Made by a program: the position numbers and the translations under genes
The notes under the pieces: model-generated
Databases searched by the model: none
What the model was told of the DNA's origin: nothing
What the model saw: only the letters and a program-made list of their open reading frames with translations
Shown here: positions 10,963 to 61,449 of the stretch, in pieces
Numbering within the stretch: position 1 is the first letter of the stretch
Layout of the letters: the number at the start of each line of letters is the position of its first letter
DNA from: Puffinus mauretanicus
Lineage: Eukaryota; Chordata; Aves; Procellariiformes; Procellariidae
Length of the DNA stretch: 64,000 nucleotides
Reading direction: 5' to 3'
Assembly: GCA_023333565.1 (NCBI GenBank)
Contig: JAJKFH010000115.1
Location: 3,596,001-3,660,000 of the forward strand

Positions 10963-11249
10963 GAAGGTGTCCTGGTTCCAGCTGGGACAGAGTTAACTTT
11001 CTTCCCAGTAGCTTGGGGGGTGTGCTGTGTTTTGGGTTTGGTGTGAAAGGAGCGTTGATGGCCCATTGATGCTTTCATTGTTGCTGGGTGGTGCTTGCAC
11101 CGGGAGGGGGGAGCACAGCTGGGGTGGTGGACCCAGCTGGCCAATAGGGTATTCTCTACCATGTGACATAATACTCACTATAAAAACCAGGTGGGGGCGG
11201 GGGGGGGGCTTGGTCCCTGTTCGTGACACGCGGTCAGCGGTCGGTGAGA

Positions 11250-12835
11250 ATAGAATCATAGAATCATAGAATCATTAAGGTTGGAAAAGACCTCTAAGAT
11301 CATCAAGTCCAACCGTCAACCCAACACCACCATGCCCACTACACCATGTCCCTAAGCGCCTCATCTACACATCTTTTAAATACTGCCAGGGATGATCACT
11401 CAACCACTTCCCTGGACAGCCTGTTCCAAGGCTTGACAACCTTTTGGGTAAAGAACTTTTTCCTAATACCCAATCTAAACCTCCCCTGGTGCAACTTGAG
11501 GATGTTTCCTCTTGTCGTATTGCTTGCTACTTGGGAGAAGAGACCAACACCCACCTCACTACAACCTCCTTTCAGGTAGTTGTAGAGCGCAATGAGGTCT
11601 CCCCTCAGCCTCCTCTTCTCCAGGCTAAACAATCCCAGTTCCCTCAGCCGCTCCTCATAAGACTTGCGCTCCAGGCCCTTCACCAGCTTCATTGCCCTCC
11701 TCTGGACACGCTCCAGCACCTCAATGTCCTTCTTGTAGTGAGGGGCCCAAAACTGAACACAGGATTCGAGGTGCGGCCTCACCAGTGCCGAGTACAGGGG
11801 CACGATCACCTCCCTGCTCCTGCTGGCCACACTAGTTCTAATACAGGCCAGGATGTTGTTGGCCTTCTTGGCCACCTGGGCACACTGCCGGCTCATGTTC
11901 AGCCGACTGTCAACCAGCACCCCCAGGTGCTCCTTTTCCTCTGGGCAGCTTTCCAGCCACTCTTCCCCAAGCCTGTAGCGTTGCCTGGGGTTGTTGTGGC
12001 CGAAGTGCAGGACCCAGCACTTGGCCTTGTTGAACCTCATACAGTTGGCCTCAGCCCATCGATCCAGCGTGTCCAGGTCCCTCTGCAGAGCCTTCCTACC
12101 CTCCAGCAGATCAACACTCCTGCCCAACTTGGTGTCATCTGCAAACTTACTGAGGGAGCACTCGATCCCCTCATCTAGATCATTGATAAAGATATTGAAC
12201 AGGACCGGCCCCAAAACTGAGCCCTGGGGAACACCGCTCGTGACCAGCTGCCAACTGGATTTAACTCCGTTCACCACAACTCTCTGGGCTCGGCCGTCCA
12301 GCCAGTTTTTTACCCAGTGAAGAGTACACCTGTCTAAGCCATGAGCTGCCAGCTTCTCTAGGAGAATGCCGTGGGAGACAGTGTCAAAGGCTTTACTGAA
12401 GTCCAGGTAGACCACATCCACAGCCTTTCCCTCATCCACGAGGCGGGTCACCTGCTCATAGAAGGAGATCAGGTTGGTCAAGCAGGACCTGCCTTCCATG
12501 AACCCGTGCTGGCTGGACCTGATCCCCTGGTTCTCCTGGACATGGCTCGTGAGCACCCTCAAAACAAACCACTCCATGATCTTCCCCGGCACTGAGGTCA
12601 GCCTGACCGGCCTGTAGTTCCCCGGATCCTCCTTCCGGCCCTTCTTGTAGATGGGCGTCACATTGGCGAGCCTCCAGTCGTCCGGGACTTCCCCAGTTAA
12701 CCAGGACTGCTGGTAAATGATGGAAAGCGGCTCGGCAAGCTCCTCCGCCAGCTCCCTCAGTACCCTCGAGTGGATCCCATCCGGCCCCATAGACTTGTGT
12801 CCAGGTCGCATAGCAGGTCATTAACTTCTTCCTCT
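11250..12835 (-). mobile_element. CR1 LINE, 5'-truncated, antisense inside LTR
   Basis: On the minus strand this is the 3' portion of a CR1: ORF2 reverse transcriptase, a short 3' UTR, and the octamer tail seen on the + strand as repeated ATAGAATC at 11251-11272. It sits inside the LTR between the TATA box and the polyadenylation signal. The 4-bp string TGAG occurs at both junctions (11246-11249 and 12836-12839), as expected for a target-site duplication. The 5' end is truncated within the coding sequence. A frame change near 12795 separates the first residues from the main reading frame. Confidence 0.93.
11396..12811 (-). CDS. CR1 ORF2 reverse transcriptase domain (5'-truncated, otherwise open)
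   Basis: 471 codons on the minus strand encode the RT domain of a non-LTR retrotransposon, which copies LINE RNA at a nicked target site. Visible RT blocks in order are: the conserved NYRPV region with PGKIME just after it, the catalytic-aspartate block [23 protein letters not shown], and the FADDTK catalytic box (F-A-D-D). The CR1 C-terminal tail ending in WNRLS follows. The start is not authentic: the 5' part of ORF2, including the endonuclease, is missing, and homologous residues upstream lie in another frame beyond a small deletion near 12795. The lack of any stop across 471 codons indicates a young copy. It cannot retrotranspose by itself. A plus-strand frame at 11444-12178 is only its shadow. 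Confidence 0.92.
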
Positions 12836-13060
12836 TGAGTTGCGTTGTACATCGTCTGCTTTGTATATTCTGTTATTGTTGTTGTTCTCATTGTTATTAT
12901 TACTGTTCTACTTTGTTTTATTTCAATAATTAAACTCTTTTTATCTCAACCCGGGAGTTTTCCTACTTGTGCCCTCCCGATTCTCTCCCCCATCCCACTG
13001 GAGTGGGGGGGTGAGCGAGCGGGGTTTATTTGCTGGCTGGGGTTAAACCACGCCAGAAGG

Positions 13061-38035: not shown

Positions 38036-38999
38036 TGTCTTAGAATTGAGTTGGAATGATTTATACAGAGGACGAGAACAAAAAGGTTAAGGGAGACCTT
38101 ATTGAGTCACGAGGTTCAGAGAAGACCCAGCTGGATCCAATCTTAGTCTCAGACTTGGACAACAGTTTATGTCTAATACAAAAAGGATAAGGAGACCCTC
38201 CCATTGAGTCATGAGGTTCAGAGTAGACCCAGCTAGATCTGCCCCTAGTCCCAGACTTGGTCAACGGTATATGTCTAAGGGATTGTATGTGTTTAGCAGC
38301 AGTCTAAGGTTCATTCACAATCTTAAAATAGATTATAAGATTTTAGCAGACTATATTTGCTAGCAGGTACTTCCATCAATTCACACACACGCATATGGAT
38401 TCAAAGATAGATAAATATACAAAGATATACCTGTCAAAAATCCCCTCGAATTCAGTGAAATACTCACGTCAAATGTCTTGGCATTTCTCAACAGGTGAAG
38501 GGTTGAGCCTCTAGGAGTGTTGCAGCCCAAGTCCCGTGCCAGTCGGCAACAGTCCTCCAAACATCGCAAACTCGAGAGTTTGCAAACTCTGAGGAGCGTT
38601 CCACTCAGAGGGAGATACTGAGGCACAGCCCACTGGGGTCCAGGAGAGCTCAAAGGGTCTCACTTGGGACCGCTGTTTATAGGGTCGCAAGATGATTGAC
38701 TTTAGTCATCCGTCAAAACTCTAAAGGTTTCAGTAGCAATAGTATCGTTCCACTTGAGCTACGACTCAGATAAGGGTATCAGGGGATGACAATTATCCCC
38801 GCTCTCGTCCTCCACTTGGGCCAGGCAGCGGAAGTTTCTGGTACGATCGGTACATTCCCCAACCTCAGCTATGCAAGAGTTCCTGATAGGGTAAAGGGAC
38901 ACTTCACCGCCTGACTCATTACACTAGGACCAATGTTTAATGGGTGTTTCTGAGATTGCAGAGAGGCCCAGGAGGAGCGGAGGGGAACGCACCACCACA
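38036..38999 (-). mobile_element. Serine-tRNA-family ERV solo LTR, minus strand
   Basis: About 964 bp, homologous in inverted orientation to the LTR at 42470-43562. Landmarks in minus-strand order are: the start TGTGGTGGTGC (ends 38999), TATAAAC (38675-38681) followed by AGCGGTCCCAAGTGAGACC, a GTTGAGAAATGCCAA segment, then two imperfect tandem copies of a roughly 105-bp block near the U5 end. The end at 38036 (reverse TGTC) is inferred. Flanking 5-mers GGTAG and CCCTG do not match, so no target duplication is visible. No internal retroviral sequence adjoins it. Confidence 0.82.
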
Positions 39000-42055: not shown

Positions 42056-42469
42056 TAGAAGGATACAAAAATGTGTTATAAGAAAATAGCTTCATTTCAC
42101 AAAATTTCTAAAGCAATTTTTGAACTTTTTATTCCTAGAAAAATATAAGTAATTGAAATTGCCACTTTTCCTTTTAAAATGGGACAAAAATAATATCTGA
42201 GATTGCAATTTTTTTTGTGCAGGTTTTCCTGGTACCTATTATGTCCCACAGAAGTCAGTAGTTGCTGGTAGATATTTTGAAATCAGACTGTTTGTGTATA
42301 TATTTAAATATGGTTTTTATTTCATCATCTTTTTTTTTTAACAGGCTTGACAAAATGAAATGTCTTTGGTTATTGCAGTAGAAAACCAAATATGGATCAG
42401 ATCATAAGAAAATACATTTGTTTTGCAGGTTTTCGTATCATAATTCTTTTAATTTATCTTACCTACATG

Positions 42470-43562
42470 GGTGGTGGTGCATTCCTCCCCCCCTCTTTTC
42501 CTCTGGGCTATGATACAATCTCAGAACCTTCTGTTAAGCTTTAGCCATTGTGTATGCGTTGGGCGGTTAAGCGTCCCTTCGCCGTACCAAGCACTCTTGC
42601 ATGGCTAAGGTGGGGAACAACACTGATCATACCAGGGACACTAGCTACACGATCAAAGTAGGGAACAGAAACAAGAGATAATTCGTCATCTCTGACGGCT
42701 CTGAAGCATTCCCTACCTGGATCATAGCTCAAGTGGAACAATACCATGGTTACCGTGAAACAATACCATAATTACTACCCTGGACCACCTTGGATAGTAG
42801 CCAAAATGGAAATTTACTGGTGACTAAAGCCAATCATCTTGCAAACCTATAAACAGCGGTACCAAGTGAGACCTTTTGAGCTCTCCTGGACCGCCGCAGG
42901 CTGCAGCCAGAATCTCCCTCTGAGTGGGACGCCTCTCAGAGTTCGCCAACTTGAATTTGCGATACTCAGAGGATCACAGAGATTTGGGCTGAAACACTCC
43001 TCGGGGCTCAACTCTTCGCCCGTTGAGAAATGCCAAAGCATTTTATGTGAGTATTTCATGGGACCTTGAGGGGAATTTTTAACAGGTATACCTTTATAAA
43101 TTAGCTAACTCTAGTCCTTTCATTTAGCTTTGGTACCATACTCATATGATATATATACGTATTGATTGATCAAGATCTTTTTGCGCGCTTATCTGTACAG
43201 TTACTAACAAGTATAATCTGTAGTTAAGTTGTTTTAGTATTTGTAGTAACTTGACTAATTCTTTGTATAGCTGTCAAACTGATTAATGCTTAAGTATTGT
43301 TGGACGCTTAAGTTGCGGCTAAACACCCTTAAGCCTTTAGTCATAAACCATTGCCCAGGTCTGAGATTAAGGGTAAATCCAGCCACACCTAGGCTCCTCT
43401 CTGAGAAGGAGTTTAGAAAGCAAGAGGGTCTACTCTGAACCTCATGACCCAATGGGAGGGCCTTCCTATCCCTTTTTGTATTAGACACAGACCGTTGTCC
43501 ACGTCTGAGACTAAGATTGGGTCCAGTTGGATCTTCTCTGAACCTCGTGACTCAACGTGACA
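42470..43562 (+). mobile_element. Serine-tRNA-family ERV LTR (1,093 bp)
   Basis: Begins GGTGGTGGTGC (the homologous copies begin TGTGGTGGTGC or TGTAGTGGTGC, so the first T appears mutated) and ends CGTGACA at 43562, followed by ATT and the primer binding site. The TATA-type box TATAAAC is at 42848-42854 with AGCGGTACCAAGTGAGACC downstream. R-U5 carries imperfect tandem blocks with the recurring pattern GTCTGAGA(C/T)TAAG, near 43360 and 43505. The homologous minus-strand LTR lies at 38036-38999. Confidence 0.85.
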
Positions 43563-43565
43563 ATT

Positions 43566-43583
43566 TGGCATAGTCGGCAGGAT
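43566..43583 (+). other. Primer binding site, serine tRNA
   Basis: TGGCATAGTCGGCAGGAT, three bases after the LTR. It is complementary to the 3' end of vertebrate tRNA-Ser (AGA type, recalled as ending CCTGCCGACTACGCCA) except for one G-to-A difference at a CpG position. Use of tRNA-Ser is known for the class III HERV-S (HERV18) group, suggesting, not proving, a class III affiliation. Confidence 0.75.
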
Positions 43584-43785
43584 GGCAAGTAGTATCACTG
43601 ATTACTTACAAAAACATGGAATAAGTCCAAATCCCAAATTCTCAGAAGAATGGGCTCATGATAATTGGCATGATTGGAAAGCTAGTGTCCCTGGTATGAT
43701 CAGTGTTGTTCCCCACCTTAGCCATGCAAGAGTGCTTGGTACGGCCAAGGGACGCTTAACTGCCCAACTCATACACAATGGCTAA
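43582..43785 (+). pseudogene. Chimeric frame: gag N-terminus fused to antisense U3
   Basis: 67 codons. The first 33 or so (MASSITDYLQ...NWHDWK) look like the start of a retroviral Gag, since the ATG lies directly at the 3' edge of the primer site. From about 43681 the frame reads the reversed U3 and is not viral coding sequence. The identical antisense-U3 peptide also appears in the minus frame at 42541-42747, showing that the shared peptide is an artefact of the inverted LTR. The gag is thus truncated to about 100 bp with no other viral gene left. The family's full Gag is unknown to me. Confidence 0.75.
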
Positions 43786-43856
43786 ATCTTAACAGAAGGT
43801 TCTGAGATCTTATCGTAGCCCAGAGGAAAAGAGAGGGCGAGGAATGCACCACTACA
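43681..43856 (-). mobile_element. Inverted partial LTR (first 176 bp of U3)
   Basis: Reverse complement of the U3 start of the same LTR. It differs from 42470-42645 at about 11 positions by eye. The outer end (reverse of TGTAGTGGTGC) meets the ACATG duplication exactly. The inner end stops abruptly within U3 at the gag junction. Confidence 0.85.
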
Positions 43857-43861
43857 ACATG

Positions 43862-54800: not shown

Positions 54801-55027
54801 TACAATGTCCTGGTTCTGGCTGGGACAGGGTTAACTTTCTTCCCAGTAGCTTGGGGGGTGTGCTGTGTTTTGGGCTCGGTGTGAAAGGAGCGTTGATGGC
54901 CCATTGATGGCCCATTGATGCTTTGGCTGTTGCTGGGTGATGCTTGCACCGGGAGGGGGGAGCACATCCGGGGTGGTGGACCCAGCTGGCCAATGGGGTA
55001 TTCTATACCATGTGACATCATGCTCAG

Positions 55028-55035
55028 TATAAAAA
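55028..55035 (+). promoter_or_regulatory. LTR TATA box
   Basis: TATAAAAA, preceded by a CATGCTCAG motif conserved in the 3' LTR (61159-61166) and the 11-kb solo LTR (11179-11186). It would direct transcription from the U3/R border a few tens of bases downstream. Confidence 0.8.
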
Positions 55036-55183
55036 CCAGGTGTGTGGGGGGGCTCGCCCCTGTTCGTGACACGCGGTCGGCGGTCGGTGAGCAGTTGCGT
55101 TGTGCATTGCCTGCTTTGTGTATTCTGTTATTGTTGTTGTTCTCATTGTTATTATTACTGTTCTACTTAGTTTTATTTCAGTT

Positions 55184-55189
55184 ATTAAA
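55184..55189 (+). terminator. LTR polyadenylation signal ATTAAA
   Basis: ATTAAA about 150 bp after the TATA box, repeated in the 3' LTR at 61316-61321, where it would act on the viral transcript. Both sites are followed by T-rich sequence. The assignment rests on position and on conservation between LTR copies. Confidence 0.65.
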
Positions 55190-55325
55190 CTATTTTTATC
55201 TGAACCCCGGAGCTTTCCTACTTGTGCCCTCCCGATTCTCTCCCCCATCCCACCGGGGGGGGGTGATCAAGCGGCTGCGTGGAGTTTATTTTTGCTGGCT
55301 GGGGTTAGACCACGACAGTCCTTTT

Positions 55326-55343
55326 TGGCGCCCAACGTGGGGC
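55326..55343 (+). other. Primer binding site, lysine tRNA
   Basis: TGGCGCCCAACGTGGGGC, eight bases after the LTR end, a perfect complement to the 3' end of vertebrate tRNA-Lys(1,2), the primer used by several betaretroviruses such as MPMV. The 18-base match is complete, so priming specificity appears intact. Confidence 0.9.
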
Positions 55344-55412
55344 TCGGAGGGTTGAGGTAACGACAGATTATTTAGAGCATATTAAGGAATTTATATCTGG
55401 TAACATATTAAT

Positions 55413-57332
55413 TTGTTCTGCACCATGCTCTTGTTTTTACTGTACCTGTTAAAAATTGGAATTGTGTTTTGTAGTCTGTTGTGCTCTGCCGTGATTAATG
55501 ATGTTTTGCCTGGGAGATTTGTTACTAAAACGCTGGCATTGGGGGTTATTTGGTATTTGGGATTCGTAATGAAGCTGTTTCTGCATTTCGGGTACCACCT
55601 CATGGAGACCATTAGCAATTATACCTTTTCCTCCGAGAGATTTTTTATGGAGGAAATAGAGAATGGCACCCTCGCTACCTTTCTCTATGATGTCATCTCC
55701 TTTGTTAAAATAACTTGCCAGTACATTGAACATCCATGGGTAGTTAAGATACATCTATTGGTACTGCTTGGGAATATTGTTGTGGTTTCATCCAAGGTTA
55801 GTAAGCAATTCAAGAATGTCATCCAGAGATCTGCCCCAAGGCTGGATAGTTACGAGTGGCAGGGCGAGTGGGATAGCATGGGCAAATGCCTAGGGCGATG
55901 GGCACCCCCAGTGTTCTGGAACTTTACCCCTGAACAAGTGCAGAACCCTGAAAAATTAGTAGAATATTTGGAAGAAGTATGCTGTCACCCTGGCCATTCT
56001 AGGGAGACGCAAATCACTACAATGTGCTGGGGCCTGGCCCACGCCTACGGAGCCCTGTTTAACACCACTCAGAACCCCCAAGGGGAAGGAAAGGTCTCTG
56101 CAGCTGATGACAAAGCAACAGGCCCTGTGGCTACTCCTCCCCCCACAGCAAGCACAGCGGCTCCCTCACCCCCCAGGGCAGGCACGGCAGCTACTCCGCC
56201 CCCTGCGACAGAGACCCAACCCGTGCCGGTATCAGTCGCCCCTATACAAAAAAGAAAATGCACAAGAAAATCAGCTCGTCTAGTAAGGGATGAAGATGAA
56301 CCAGGGCCATCACGAGAACAGGAGGAGGAGGAGGCAGAACCCGTAAATGAGATGGTGACCACCCGATCCCTATCTCTGGGTGAGCTGCGAGATATGCGAA
56401 AAGACTTCAGCCGTCGTCCAGGCGAGCACATTGTCACCTGGCTGCTCCGATGCTGGGATAACGGGGCCAGTAGCCTGGAATTAGAGGGTAGGGAAGCCAA
56501 GCAGCTGGGATCCCTTTCTAGGGAAGGGGGCATTGACAAAGCAATTGGACAAGGGGCACAAGTCCTCAGCCTCTGGAGGCGACTCCTGTCAGGTGTGAAG
56601 GAAAGATATCCCTTCAAGGAAGATGTTATATGCCACCCAGGCAAGTGGACCACCATGGAGAGAGGTATCCAGTACCTGAGGGAATTGGCTGTGCTGGAGG
56701 TGATTTATGATGACCTGAACAACGAGCAGTTATCCAAAGACCCAGATGAAGTCAAATGCACCCGACCCATGTGGCGGAAGTTTGTACGGAGCGCACCAGA
56801 GTCACATGCAAGCTCATTGGCAATAATGACCTGGAGAGATGGAGAGGAACAAACAGTGGATGAACTGGCTGGCCAACTCCGGCAATATGAAGAAAGTCTC
56901 TCTTCCTCCCTATGGGCCTGTGTCTCTGCTGTGGAGAAACTGTCTCAGGAGGTCCAGCAACTCAAAGAGGATATGTCCTGCTCCCCACCTGCACGGGCCA
57001 GTGTCTCAGCCATTAGGAGCAAGTGTCCCTCTGCTCAAGAGAGGAGATATCGTGGATACACACCCCGGGGCACCCTGTGGTTTTACCTGCGTGACCACGG
57101 AGAGGACATGAGGAAGTGGGATGCAAAACCTACCTCAGTCCTACAGGCACGGGTACATGAGTTGCAAGGGAAAACAACCACAAAAGGGGGTTCTTCCAGG
57201 AAAACTGCTGCTACAGTCTCCAGTGAGTTCCCCAGACAGAGTAGAAGGGCTGATTCCACTTCTGACCTTAACAAAGGGACTTCTGATTCATACTTACAAG
57301 AAGTGGATAGCGAATATGATGACCAGGACTAG
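55413..57332 (+). CDS. gag: ERV Gag polyprotein, 639 aa, with N-terminal membrane segments
   Basis: Structural polyprotein expected to assemble the virus-like particle. It opens with an unusual hydrophobic region: predicted membrane segments at about residues 5-31, 37-58 and 110-127, with N-glycosylation sequons at N69 and N84 between them. Next come a WAPPVFW-containing domain (150-220), a low-complexity Pro/Ala/Thr linker (235-275), a basic cluster KRKCTRKSAR (280-289) and an acidic run around 292-309. The capsid-like region (315-520) contains WLLRCWD at 343-349 and ends in a short heptad-like stretch (505-520). The C-terminus is basic then Ser/Asp-rich. There is no CCHC zinc knuckle, as in ERV-L and foamy-type Gags. 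The frame is uninterrupted from the first Met and ends at a UAG in frame with pol. A minus frame at 56069-56656 is a shadow. Confidence 0.88.
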   Translation: MFCTMLLFLLYLLKIGIVFCSLLCSAVINDVLPGRFVTKTLALGVIWYLGFVMKLFLHFGYHLMETISNYTFSSERFFMEEIENGTLATFLYDVISFVKITCQYIEHPWVVKIHLLVLLGNIVVVSSKVSKQFKNVIQRSAPRLDSYEWQGEWDSMGKCLGRWAPPVFWNFTPEQVQNPEKLVEYLEEVCCHPGHSRETQITTMCWGLAHAYGALFNTTQNPQGEGKVSAADDKATGPVATPPPTASTAAPSPPRAGTAATPPPATETQPVPVSVAPIQKRKCTRKSARLVRDEDEPGPSREQEEEEAEPVNEMVTTRSLSLGELRDMRKDFSRRPGEHIVTWLLRCWDNGASSLELEGREAKQLGSLSREGGIDKAIGQGAQVLSLWRRLLSGVKERYPFKEDVICHPGKWTTMERGIQYLRELAVLEVIYDDLNNEQLSKDPDEVKCTRPMWRKFVRSAPESHASSLAIMTWRDGEEQTVDELAGQLRQYEESLSSSLWACVSAVEKLSQEVQQLKEDMSCSPPARASVSAIRSKCPSAQERRYRGYTPRGTLWFYLRDHGEDMRKWDAKPTSVLQARVHELQGKTTTKGGSSRKTAATVSSEFPRQSRRADSTSDLNKGTSDSYLQEVDSEYDDQD

Positions 57333-57360
57333 AGGGGCCCTGCCTCCAGCCTGGTGGAGG
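57330..57360 (+). promoter_or_regulatory. Candidate gag-pol UAG readthrough signal with hairpin
   Basis: UAG (57330-57332) separates gag from pol in the same frame. Ten bases downstream, CCTCCA (57343-57348) and TGGAGG (57355-57360) form a perfect 6-bp stem around a 6-base loop, GCCTGG. A UAG followed by a purine, a short spacer and RNA structure is the arrangement used by gammaretroviruses, where the structure is a pseudoknot. The function here is inferred. The UAG could instead be an inactivating mutation of a continuous frame. Confidence 0.6.
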
Positions 57361-60300
57361 AAAGGGACAACCGGGTTTACTGGACTGTGTGGATTCGATG
57401 GCCTGGCACATCAGAGCCACAGGAGTATAAGGCTCTCGTAGACACTGGTGCACAGTGTACCCTGATGCCATCAAGCTATAAAGAGGTAGAACCCATTTGT
57501 ATTTCTGGAGTGACAGGGGGATCCCAAGAGTTAACTGTATTGGAGGCCGAAGTGAGCCTAACCGGGAATGAGTGGCAGAAGCACCCCATTGTGACTGGCC
57601 CAGAGGCTCCGTGCATCCTTGGCACAGACTACCTCAGGAGAGGGTACCCAAAAGGGTACCGGTGGGCTTTTGGTATAGCTGCCCTGGAGATGGAGGAAAT
57701 TAAACAGCTGTCCACCTTGCCCAGTCTCTCAGAGGACCCTTCTGTTGTGGGGTTGTTGAGGGTTGAAGAACAGCAGGTACCAATCGCTACCACAACAGTG
57801 CACCGGCAACAATATCGCACCAACCGAGACTCCCTGATCCCCATCCATGAGCTGATTCGTCGACTGGAGAACCAAGGAGTGATCAGCAAGACTCGCTCAC
57901 CCTTCAACAGTCCCATATGGCCAGTGCGAAAGTCCAATGGAGAGTGGAGACTAACAGTAGACTACCGTGGCCTGAACGAAGTCACGCCGCCACTGAGTGC
58001 TGCCGTGCCGGACATGCTGGAACTTCAATACGAACTGGAGTCAAAGGCAGCCAAGTGGTACGCCACCATTGATATCGCTAATGCGTTCTTCTCCATCCCT
58101 TTGGCAGCAGAGTGCAGGCCACAGTTTGCTTTCACTTGGAGGGGTGTCCAGTACACCTGGAACCGACTGCCCCAGGGGTGGAAACACAGCCCTACCATTT
58201 GCCATGGACTGATCCACACCGCACTGGAACAGGGTGAGGCTCCAGAACACCTGCAGTACATTGATGACATCATCATGTGGGGCAACACAGCAGAGGAAGT
58301 TTTTGAGAAAGGGGAGAGAATAGTCCAAATCCTTCTGAAGGCCGGTTTTGCCATAAAACAAAGTAAGGTCAAGGGACCTGCACAGGAGATCCAGTTTTTA
58401 GGAATAAAATGGCAAGATGGACGTTGTCAGATCCCAACAGATGTGATGAATAAAGTAACAGCCATGTCTCCACCAACTAACAAAAAGGAAACGCAAGCTT
58501 TCTTAGGCATTGTGGGTTTTTGGAGAATGCATATTCCAAATTACAGTCAGATCGTAAGCCCTCTCTATCACGTGACCAGGAAGAAGAACGACTTCAAATG
58601 GGGCCCTGAGCAACGACAAGCCTTTGAACAAATTAAACAGGAGATAGTTCATGCAGTAGCCCTTGGGCCAGTCCGGGCAGGACAAGATGTAAGGAATGTG
58701 CTCTACACCGCAGCCGGGGAGAATGGCCCCACCTGGAGCCTCTGGCAGAAAGCACCAGGGGAGACTCGAGGTCGACCCTTAGGGTTCTGGAGTCGGGGAT
58801 ACAGAGGATCCGAGGCCCGCTACACTCCAACTGAGAAGGAGATATTGGCAGCATATGAAGGGATTCGAGCTGCTTCGGAAGTGGTTGGTACTGAAGCACA
58901 GCTCCTCCTGGCACCCCGACTGCCGGTGCTGGGCTGGATGTTCAAAGGGAGCGTCCCCTCTACACATCATGCAACTGATGCTATGTGGAGTAAGTGGGTC
59001 GCATTGATCACACAACGGGCCCGAATAGGAAACCCCAGTCGCCCAGGAATCTTGGAGGTGATCACGAACTGGCCAGAAGGCAAAGATTTTGGAATATCCC
59101 CAGAGGAGGAAGTGACACGTGCTGAAGAGGCCCCACCATATAACAAACTACCAGAAAATGAGAAGCAATATGCCTTGTTCACTGATGGGTCCTGTCGCCT
59201 TGTGGGAAAGCATCGGAGATGGAAGGCTGCGGTATGGAGTCCTATACGCCAAGTTGCAGAAACTGCTGAAGGAGAAGGTGAATCGAGTCAGTTCGCAGAG
59301 GTGAAAGCCATCCAGCTGGCCTTGGACATTGCTGAACGAGAAAAATGGCCAGTACTTTATCTCTATACTGACTCATGGATGGTGGCAAATGCCCTGTGGG
59401 GATGGTTGCAGCAGTGGAAGCAGAACAACTGGCAGCGCAGAGGTAAACCCATCTGGGCTGCCGCATTGTGGCAAGATATTGCTGCCCGGGTAGAGAACCT
59501 GACTGTAAAAGTATGTCACGTAGATGCTCACGTACCCAAGAGTCAGGCCAGTGAAGAGCACCAAAACAACCAGCAGGTGGACCAGGCTGCCAAGATTGAA
59601 GTGGCTCAGGTGGATCTGGACTGGCAATATAAAGGTGAATTATTTATAGCTCGGTGGGCCCATGACACTTCAGGCCACCAAGGGAGAGATGCAACATATA
59701 GATGGGCTCGTGATCGAGGGGTGGACTTGACCATGGACACTATTGCACAAGTTATCCACGAATGTGAAACGTGCGCTGCAGTCAAGCAAGCCAAGCGAGT
59801 AAAGCCTCTTTGGTATGGAGGACGATGGTTGAAGTATAAATATGGAGAAGCTTGGCAGATTGATTATATCACAGTCCCACAAACCCGACAGGGCAAGCGC
59901 TATGTGCTCACCATGGTAGAAGTAACCACAGGATGGCTGGAAACATATCCTGTGCCCCATGCCACCGCCTGGAACACCATCCTGGGCCTTGAAAAACAAG
60001 TCCTATGGCGACATGGCACCCCAGAAAGAATTGAGTCAGACAACGGGACTCACTTCCGAAACACCTTCATAGACACCTGGGCCAAAGAGCATGGCATTGA
60101 GTGGGTCTATCACATCCCCTACCATGCACCAGCCTCCGGAAAAATTGAACGATACAATGGGCTGTTAAAGACAACACTGAGGGCAATGGGTGGTGGGACA
60201 TTCAAGCATTGGGACACACATTTAGCAAAGGCCACCTGGTTAGTCAACACTAGGGGATCTGTCACTCAAGCTGGCCCTGCCCAATCCAAACCCTTACGTA

Positions 60301-60440
60301 CTGTAGAGGGGGATAAAGTCCCTGTCGTGCATATGAGAAATATGCTGGGGAAGACGTCTGGGTTGCTCCTGCCTCTGGCAAGGGAAAACCCATCCGTGGG
60401 ATTGCTTTTGCTCAGGGACCTGGGTGCACTTGGTGGGTGA
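57333..60440 (+). CDS. pol: ERV Pol: protease, reverse transcriptase, RNase H, integrase (C-terminus frameshifted)
   Basis: Open from just after the gag UAG, in the same frame. Residues below are counted from the GTG codon at 57354, used only as a reference point. Protease: ALVDTGAQ (D30-T31-G32) and ILGTDYL near 88-94. RT: LTVDYRGLN (200-208), ATIDIANAFF (237-246), LPQGWKHSP (272-280), catalytic YIDD (302-305). RNase H: D611, E649, D673 and D743. Integrase: HHCC zinc site H770/H775/C804/C807 and catalytic D837, D896, E932 with 35 residues between the last two. All key residues are present. No dUTPase domain is evident. A one-base loss at about 60354-60360 changes frame, so the final residues to 60440 are not native. 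Expression would need UAG suppression. Confidence 0.92.
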   Translation, partial: RGPASSLVEERDNRVYWTVWIRWPGTSEPQEYKALVDTGAQCTLMPSSYKEVEPICISGVTGGSQELTVLEAEVSLTGNEWQKHPIVTGPEAPCILGTDYLRRGYPKGYRWAFGIAALEMEEIKQLSTLPSLSEDPSVVGLLRVEEQQVPIATTTVHRQQYRTNRDSLIPIHELIRRLENQGVISKTRSPFNSPIWPVRKSNGEWRLTVDYRGLNEVTPPLSAAVPDMLELQYELESKAAKWYATIDIANAFFSIPLAAECRPQFAFTWRGVQYTWNRLPQGWKHSPTICHGLIHTALEQGEAPEHLQYIDDIIMWGNTAEEVFEKGERIVQILLKAGFAIKQSKVKGPAQEIQFLGIKWQDGRCQIPTDVMNKVTAMSPPTNKKETQAFLGIVGFWRMHIPNYSQIVSPLYHVTRKKNDFKWGPEQRQAFEQIKQEIVHAVALGPVRAGQDVRNVLYTAAGENGPTWSLWQKAPGETRGRPLGFWSRGYRGSEARYTPTEKEILAAYEGIRAASEVVGTEAQLLLAPRLPVLGWMFKGSVPSTHHATDAMWSKWVALITQRARIGNPSRPGILEVITNWPEGKDFGISPEEEVTRAEEAPPYNKLPENEKQYALFTDGSCRLVGKHRRWKAAVWSPIRQVAETAEGEGESSQFAEVKAIQLALDIAEREKWPVLYLYTDSWMVANALWGWLQQWKQNNWQRRGKPIWAAALWQDIAARVENLTVKVCHVDAHVPKSQASEEHQNNQQVDQAAKIEVAQVDLDWQYKGELFIARWAHDTSGHQGRDATYRWARDRGVDLTMDTIAQVIHECETCAAVKQAKRVKPLWYGGRWLKYKYGEAWQIDYITVPQTRQGKRYVLTMVEVTTGWLETYPVPHATAWNTILGLEKQVLWRHGTPERIESDNGTHFRNTFIDTWAKEHGIEWVYHIPYHAPASGKIERYNGLLKTTLRAMGGGTFKHWDTHLAKATWLVNTRGSVTQAGPAQSKPLRTVEGDKVPVVHMRNMLGKTSGLLLPLARENPSVGLLLLRDLGALGG

Positions 60441-60508
60441 TGAGAAAGGATGGGGAAGTCCGGTGTGTACCTCAAGGGGATTTAATTTTGGGTGAAAATA
60501 GCCAATGA
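60354..60508 (+). pseudogene. Out-of-frame integrase C-terminal remnant
   Basis: After the frameshift the coding-like signal continues in another frame to a TGA at 60506-60508. The segment is rich in Gly, Trp and basic residues, contains WWVMRKDGEV and CVPQGDL, and resembles the SH3-like C-terminal domain that follows the DDE core of retroviral integrases. Its coherence indicates that one small indel, not general decay, broke the gene. Confidence 0.7.
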
Positions 60509-60940
60509 ACTGAATTGTATGATGTTAGTTATTACATAGTACTGTATGTCATCACTTCTATGGTTACCATATGCCATATTAACAGTATTACAGTAAGAAT
60601 CACCCAGATTAATGTAGGAGGAACTCCGATGAAACTGAGCAAGGTGCAACGATGATAGAACCGGACGAGCGCCCAGAACTGGCCTCCGCATGCAAGAGCC
60701 CAACACCACACACCATCTCTCCTGCCCTGCAAGACTGTTATGACAGATGGAACCCGAAGTCATGGACTAAATGAACTCAACGGACGTTTTAGAGGGATGG
60801 CCCATGGACTAAGGGAATGATATCTCTGTGTGTGTGTATATATATCAAAAGGCAGGAAAAGTAGCGGTGACTAATTGGAATGTATTGGAAAATGTGAGAC
60901 CTGGGCATGATGTAGATGGTATAGAATAAGGGGTGGATAT
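60509..60940 (+). other. Untranslated 3' region of the provirus, no env
   Basis: 432 bp with no frame resembling an envelope protein and no splice-like remnant. It contains a TG/TA microsatellite at about 60828-60846 and ends in a purine-rich AATAAGGGGTGGA directly before the 3' LTR, the likely polypurine tract that primes plus-strand synthesis. Either the lineage never had env, as in ERV-L, or it was lost without trace. Confidence 0.8.
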
Positions 60941-61449
60941 TGTCCTGGTTCCAGCTGGGACAGGGTTAACTTTCTTCCCAGTAGCTTGGGGGGTGTGCTG
61001 TATTTTGGGTTCGGTGTGAAGGGAGTGTTGATGGCCCATCGATGCTTTGGCTGTTGCTGGGTGATGCTTGCACCGGGAGGGGGGAAGGGGGAGCACATCC
61101 GGGGTGCTGGACCCAGCTGGCCAATGGGGTATTCTATACCATGTGACATCATGCTCAGTATAAAAACCAGGTGTGGGGGGGGGCTCGCCCCCCGTTCGTG
61201 ACACGCGGTTGGCGGTCGGTGAGCAGTTGTGTTGTACATTGCCTGCTTTGTGTATTCTGTTATTGTTGTTGTTCTCATTGTTATTATTACTGTTCTACTT
61301 ATTTTTATTTCAATTATTAAACTATTTTTATCTCAACCCGGGAGCTTTCCTACTTGTGCCCTCCCGATTCTCTCCCCCATCCCACCGGGGGGGGGTGATC
61401 GAGCGGCTGCGTGGAGTTTATTTTTGCTGGCTGGGGTTAAACCACGACA
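60941..61449 (+). repeat. 3' LTR of the provirus
   Basis: 509 bp from TGTCCTGG to ACGACA, followed by the TACAA duplication. It lacks the 5' LTR's GATGGCCCATT duplication but carries a small G/A-rich insertion after the CACCGGGAGG motif. TATA box at 61159-61166 and ATTAAA at 61316-61321. Confidence 0.95.

Follow-up and report, generated by a model that had tools for sequence, protein, structure and literature searches.

A 64,000-nucleotide stretch of the Puffinus mauretanicus genome (hereafter the window; GenBank assembly GCA_023333565.1, contig JAJKFH010000115.1, positions 3,596,001 to 3,660,000 of the forward strand) carries at 42470–43856 what reads as a single insertion of an abundant endogenous retrovirus (ERV) family, bracketed by ACATG on either side and terminating in unique 3' (U3) sequence at both edges. 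From left to right it consists of a long terminal repeat (LTR) on the plus strand (42470–43562), a short proviral 5' internal sequence on the plus strand (43563–43683), and an inverted U3 arm on the minus strand (43680–43856). We conclude that concerted integration of a U3/U3 pair very probably produced the element. The original prediction had proposed that integrase joined a U3-U3 molecule, and this is well supported by the U3 termini at both edges, a 5-bp target-site duplication of the length typical of the family, and one unique internal junction. Because the right end of a provirus is unique 5' (U5) sequence, the right-hand U3 at the duplication does not derive from ordinary provirus decay; integration of a U3/U3 pair explains both edges in one step.

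The outer edges were placed using other members of the family. The element was used as a query against the 1.21-Gb genome (2,370 contigs), the best 40 of 1,651 candidates were scored, and 27 solo LTR copies were taken together with their flanks. These begin TGTGGTGGTGCATTCC, with variants; the copies measured from duplication to duplication span 1,301–1,329 bp and end near ATTCGTGACA. The family U3 start set from these loci maps to 42470 on the left side of the window element, where the first T is mutated to G, and, inverted, to 43856 on the right side (TGTAGTGGTGC), where the TG is intact on the minus strand and reads outward; TG...CA LTR ends are present in most family copies. Because the LTR start was placed independently from the solo LTRs, the two ACATG copies (42465–42469 and 43857–43861) contact both U3 termini, as had been claimed for two outward-facing U3 ends. 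The 176-bp inverted U3 described at the right end is likewise present, and measures 177 nucleotides (nt; 43680–43856) if the four shared nucleotides AGCT at its inner edge are counted, with the family U3 start outermost. The corresponding stretch in the left LTR is 42470–42646.

Five bp is the duplication length characteristic of this family. Exact 5-bp duplications, scored by script, flank 18 of the 22 scorable solo LTRs among the 27 examined; no duplication of 4 or 6 bp was found in these 22, and four of them lack any. One of the five solo LTRs outside the script scoring (L014) also has an exact 5-bp duplication. Two of the 18 (L019 on C2243 and L021 on C217) share their duplication and look like the same solo LTR, represented twice as a duplicated segment or an uncollapsed haplotype. 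A single duplication of the family's length, ACATG at each end, brackets the whole window element, and equal 5-mers are expected by chance with a frequency of 0.0012 from composition or 0.0016 from local 5-mers.

The sequence that follows the left LTR was used for a second search, in which the best 40 of 69 candidates were scored and 30 loci, including the window, were fetched. It is carried by the 29 other fetched loci at 88–97% identity. In one of them (L031) the same internal sequence (96%) follows an LTR of this family (90% over 1,089 nt), which identifies the stretch after the LTR as 5' internal sequence belonging to the family. Three nt past the LTR end, in a region common to the 29 other loci, is a TGG-initial stretch resembling a primer-binding site (PBS; 43566–43583), which may match tRNA-Ser. 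The segment had been described as about 100 bp of gag; its retroviral nature is borne out by the 29 loci, while the gag label is not, its 33-codon open frame having no Pfam match, and the remainder is designated leader or putative gag start. A search for pol domains in one relative (L067), over the 3 kb that follow its internal sequence, gave no Pfam match at E 0.01 for any of eight open pieces. In the short printed stretches around the primer site and the junction, loci L037, L038 and L039 are identical to one another, as are L032 and L034, all on different contigs; these may be recent copies or assembly duplicates.

Inspected by eye past the junction point, 28 of the 29 other loci continue into a common, different sequence, and the remaining locus (L057) stops earlier. 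In the window element the PBS-proximal sequence is fused to the inverted U3 with four shared nt, AGCT, at 43680–43683: the sequence is GGAAAGC-TGTGG in the relatives, GTAGCT-AGTGTCC in the inverted U3, and GGAAAGCT-AGTGTCC in the window. By our arithmetic, at least four shared bases are expected at about 1.6% of random joins. A 20-mer over the junction has one match at 0–1 mismatches in 1.21 Gb. The junction falls at U3 position 174–177, away from the U3 end. In autointegration an LTR terminus becomes joined to internal DNA; here the internal DNA meets an interior point of U3, and autointegration was rejected as the source of this arrangement on that ground. An older related LTR lies on the minus strand about 3.5 kb to the left of the element (38078–38998; 67–91% identity in pieces); as a donor of the inverted arm, this LTR at 38.08–39.00 kb was rejected on its 67% identity in U3.

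Aligned over 176 sites, the two U3 arms show 11 differences (93.75% identity); between them lie 1,033 nt of other sequence, and the right outer flank is not the inverted left flank. Over sites 11–176 the left arm has two near-private substitutions and the right arm three, against 1–9 (median 3) in 26 solo LTRs (the 27 minus one duplicate), which argues that the arms are of like age. Both arms carry the same base at site 160, a base present in 22% of the 27 solo LTRs. At an avian substitution rate near 2 × 10⁻⁹ per site per year, the 6% between the arms gives a rough figure of some 16 million years.

The left LTR had been called complete, which is wrong. Because it measures 1,093 bp, compared with 1,301–1,329 bp in the copies measured between duplications, and has lost about 223 nt at 43555–43558, it is incomplete in its 3' portion, made up of the repeat (R) and U5 regions. 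At this point the sequence skips from ..CTCAA(CG) to (CG)TGACA, the CG being common to both flanks, and the LTR ends ..CGTGACA. The missing R/U5 stretch could be measured in 23 of the 27 solo LTRs, where it is 174–271 nt long and exactly 223 nt in 11. The join is absent from all 27 solo LTRs, which continue differently over the first 10 nt printed, and from the 29 proviral loci over the 30 nt printed upstream; the deletion was accordingly rejected as a subfamily trait. A 16-mer over the deletion has 21 genome matches, compared with 76 for the control, and none of the seven fetched from the 20 matches outside the window is at an LTR. A direct repeat inside the LTR (43426–43457 and 43529–43560; 32 nt, 81% identity, 103-nt spacing) lies beside the deletion point. 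A TATAAA on the plus strand at 42848–42853 is a possible TATA box, which would give a U3 of about 400 bp; a second TATAAA occurs at 43095.

The U3-U3 DNA itself would have arisen by faulty reverse transcription that left retroviral DNA ending in U3 on each side. As the likeliest route we favor, with moderate confidence, a template switch that crossed strands during plus-strand synthesis. Synthesis would have crossed to the opposite strand at AGCT, from U3 sense onto 5'-end plus-strand DNA or, equivalently, from 5'-end plus-strand DNA onto a second plus strand's U3, and would have run out at the end made by polypurine-tract priming. The product would have the order U3, R/U5, PBS, internal sequence, inverted U3, and integrase would then have inserted it in one normal two-ended (concerted) reaction, generating the 5-bp duplication ACATG. 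The R/U5 deletion, with its two shared bases, was maybe a second slip of the same synthesis. A template switch of this kind would account for the short homology, the second slip, and the presence of an exact U3 terminus at either edge, and it requires that the plus-strand DNA serving as template already bear U3. The original prediction had outlined such a route, with plus-strand DNA beginning at the polypurine tract, copying 176 nt of U3, then switching onto sense gag and running out through the LTR. The 4-nt microhomology and the two exact U3 ends are consistent with that scheme, whose product is indistinguishable from those of end-joining or of an intasome with two U3 ends.

Several observations weigh against this reading. 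The sequence does not separate a polymerase switch from microhomology end-joining, and the R/U5 deletion could be an unrelated later event. The right arm is also only a little closer to the left arm than to other copies: it has a mean identity of 92.5% to these, and 2 of the 27 solo LTRs match it as closely as the left arm does, while the left arm has a mean identity of 93.7% to the solo LTRs, 11 of the 27 being at least as close to it as the right arm. Solo LTRs compared with each other have a mean identity of 92.8%. The arm identities would thus fit one event in a star-like burst, and descent from a single parental molecule or RNA is not demonstrated by them. Finally, at 2–3 mismatches the junction 20-mer has 53 other matches, compared with 28 for a reversed control; two of the 53 were fetched, of which L070 bears no resemblance to the element and L069 matches it over just 24 nt at the junction and has no LTR.

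An origin from the left ends of two viral DNAs is possible, although we regard it as unlikely. Broken linear molecules could have been end-joined before integration, or an intasome could have paired two U3 ends and host repair could have closed the interior at AGCT. The outer anatomy would be identical, a 4-nt microhomology suits alternative end-joining too, and the arms are not clearly of one parent; however, both DNAs must have been cut near their left ends, within about 1.4 kb and about 0.2 kb of the U3 terminus. More doubtful is a larger U3-U3 insertion, such as a long head-to-head inverted dimer, that lost an unstable center and retains 43680 as a deletion scar. Long inverted repeats are prone to deletion, microhomology is present at the scar, and another deletion is found in the same element, but this scheme adds a step, and no longer version was seen in this genome, the only one searched.

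Two independent insertions in opposite orientation, followed by deletion of the intervening host DNA and of their inner parts, are very improbable. The family is common enough to supply them, a U3-end pattern searched on both strands with at most one mismatch giving 1,046 matches compared with 55 for the control. The 5-mers at the two outer U3 termini would nevertheless have to agree by chance (0.0012–0.0016), and inspection by eye of the 100 exact places listed found no outward-facing U3 pair within 12 kb, a weak test that would miss the window element itself, its right end having a mismatch. An assembly or fold-back read artefact is scarcely credible: there are 11 mismatches between the arms over 176 sites, 1,033 nt separate them, the outer flanks are unlike, and no target duplication is expected from such an error.

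The genome search for further U3-U3 insertions suggested with the original prediction yielded no second case in the loci looked at. Among 57 family loci (27 solo LTRs and 30 loci with the PBS region, including the window, with flanks of up to about 1.5 kb), an inverted U3 was found in the window only. A multiplied family of the same structure is therefore unsupported, given the single junction 20-mer at 0–1 mismatches and one inverted U3 in 57 loci. It seems quite unlikely that germ-line use of U3/U3 DNA by the integrase of this family is frequent enough to produce a recurrent class of inverted-ended insertions; were that true, such a class would be a fossil record, countable per genome, of strand-crossing errors in plus-strand synthesis.

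Avian integrases can use two U3 ends in test-tube concerted integration. Two U3 ends would have been used likewise in the window element, in this case with the product fixed in the germ line. Judging by their titles, Shoemaker 1980 and Lee and Coffin 1990 deal with inverted-segment circles and with the autointegration of retroviral DNA. The window element is like these in its inverted arrangement of viral sequence, which would likewise predate integration, whereas an autointegration product has an LTR terminus at the join and the window element has a point inside U3. A human ERV-related element resembling a DNA transposon is the titular subject of Hughes and Coffin 2002 (Genomics 80:453), and is said to have an inverted terminal LTR and a target duplication.

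A closer comparison is offered by HERV-K124 (human chr4:161579938-161582439), which contains truncated inverted LTR pieces, one of them at the far end (PMC3625200). In the available portion of that paper, the authors propose LTR inversion together with template switching, call LTR inversion rare, and cite Hughes and Coffin 2002 (PMC3625200). The table row for the element gives 968, 1171, 78, 206 and 78 bp (PMC3625200), which on our reading are a 5' LTR, internal sequence, inverted LTR, internal sequence and inverted LTR. HERV-K124 thus resembles the window element in having an inverted LTR piece at the far end and a proposed origin by template switching, and differs from it in having two inverted pieces, a second internal piece, and membership of the HERV-K family. 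A survey of HML-2 elements lists the locus as 4q32.1, and the available main text does not mention the inversion (PMC3228705). Because HERV-K124 precedes it, as does, by its title and reported features, the element described by Hughes and Coffin in 2002, the window element joins a rare known kind and is not a new kind.

No report of inverted-LTR proviruses, of U3-U3 use by integrase, or of LTR integration in inverted orientation was found in the literature searched, whose coverage is thin in subscription journals, and absence from print is not claimed. The available portion of PMC5618025 contains nothing on inverted joins. By description only, as abundant avian repeats, the window LTR family can be likened to Hitchcock and Kronos (PMC4992247, PMC2329609, PMC4540587). 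In the portions of these papers available, Hitchcock is called an LTR element in two (PMC2329609, PMC4540587) and is listed as undefined in the third (PMC4992247).

If the proposed origin of the window element holds, a natural germ line shows that integrase does not need a U3 plus U5 pair, two U3 ends being sufficient for an accurate 5-bp staggered insertion, and the element is the surviving product of viral DNA synthesis that crossed strands in error. Insertions with inverted ends resemble DNA transposons, as the title of one paper notes for a human element. Repeat annotation that expects direct LTR pairs would probably label the window element a solo LTR plus a fragment.

Other retroviral sequences are present in the window. 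A provirus-like element at 54806–61449 is bounded by 0.5-kb direct repeats (54806–55317 and 60941–61449; 92.7% identical) and encloses a 639-aa frame with no Pfam match and a 1,028-aa frame with reverse transcriptase (RT), RNase H and integrase domains. Pieces of the repeat of this 54.8-kb element, about 87–89% identical, occur at 10968–11248 and 12838–13055, and between them is a 471-aa minus-strand frame with an RT domain (11396–12811). The segment 10968–13055 may represent the insertion of an RT-bearing element into an LTR.
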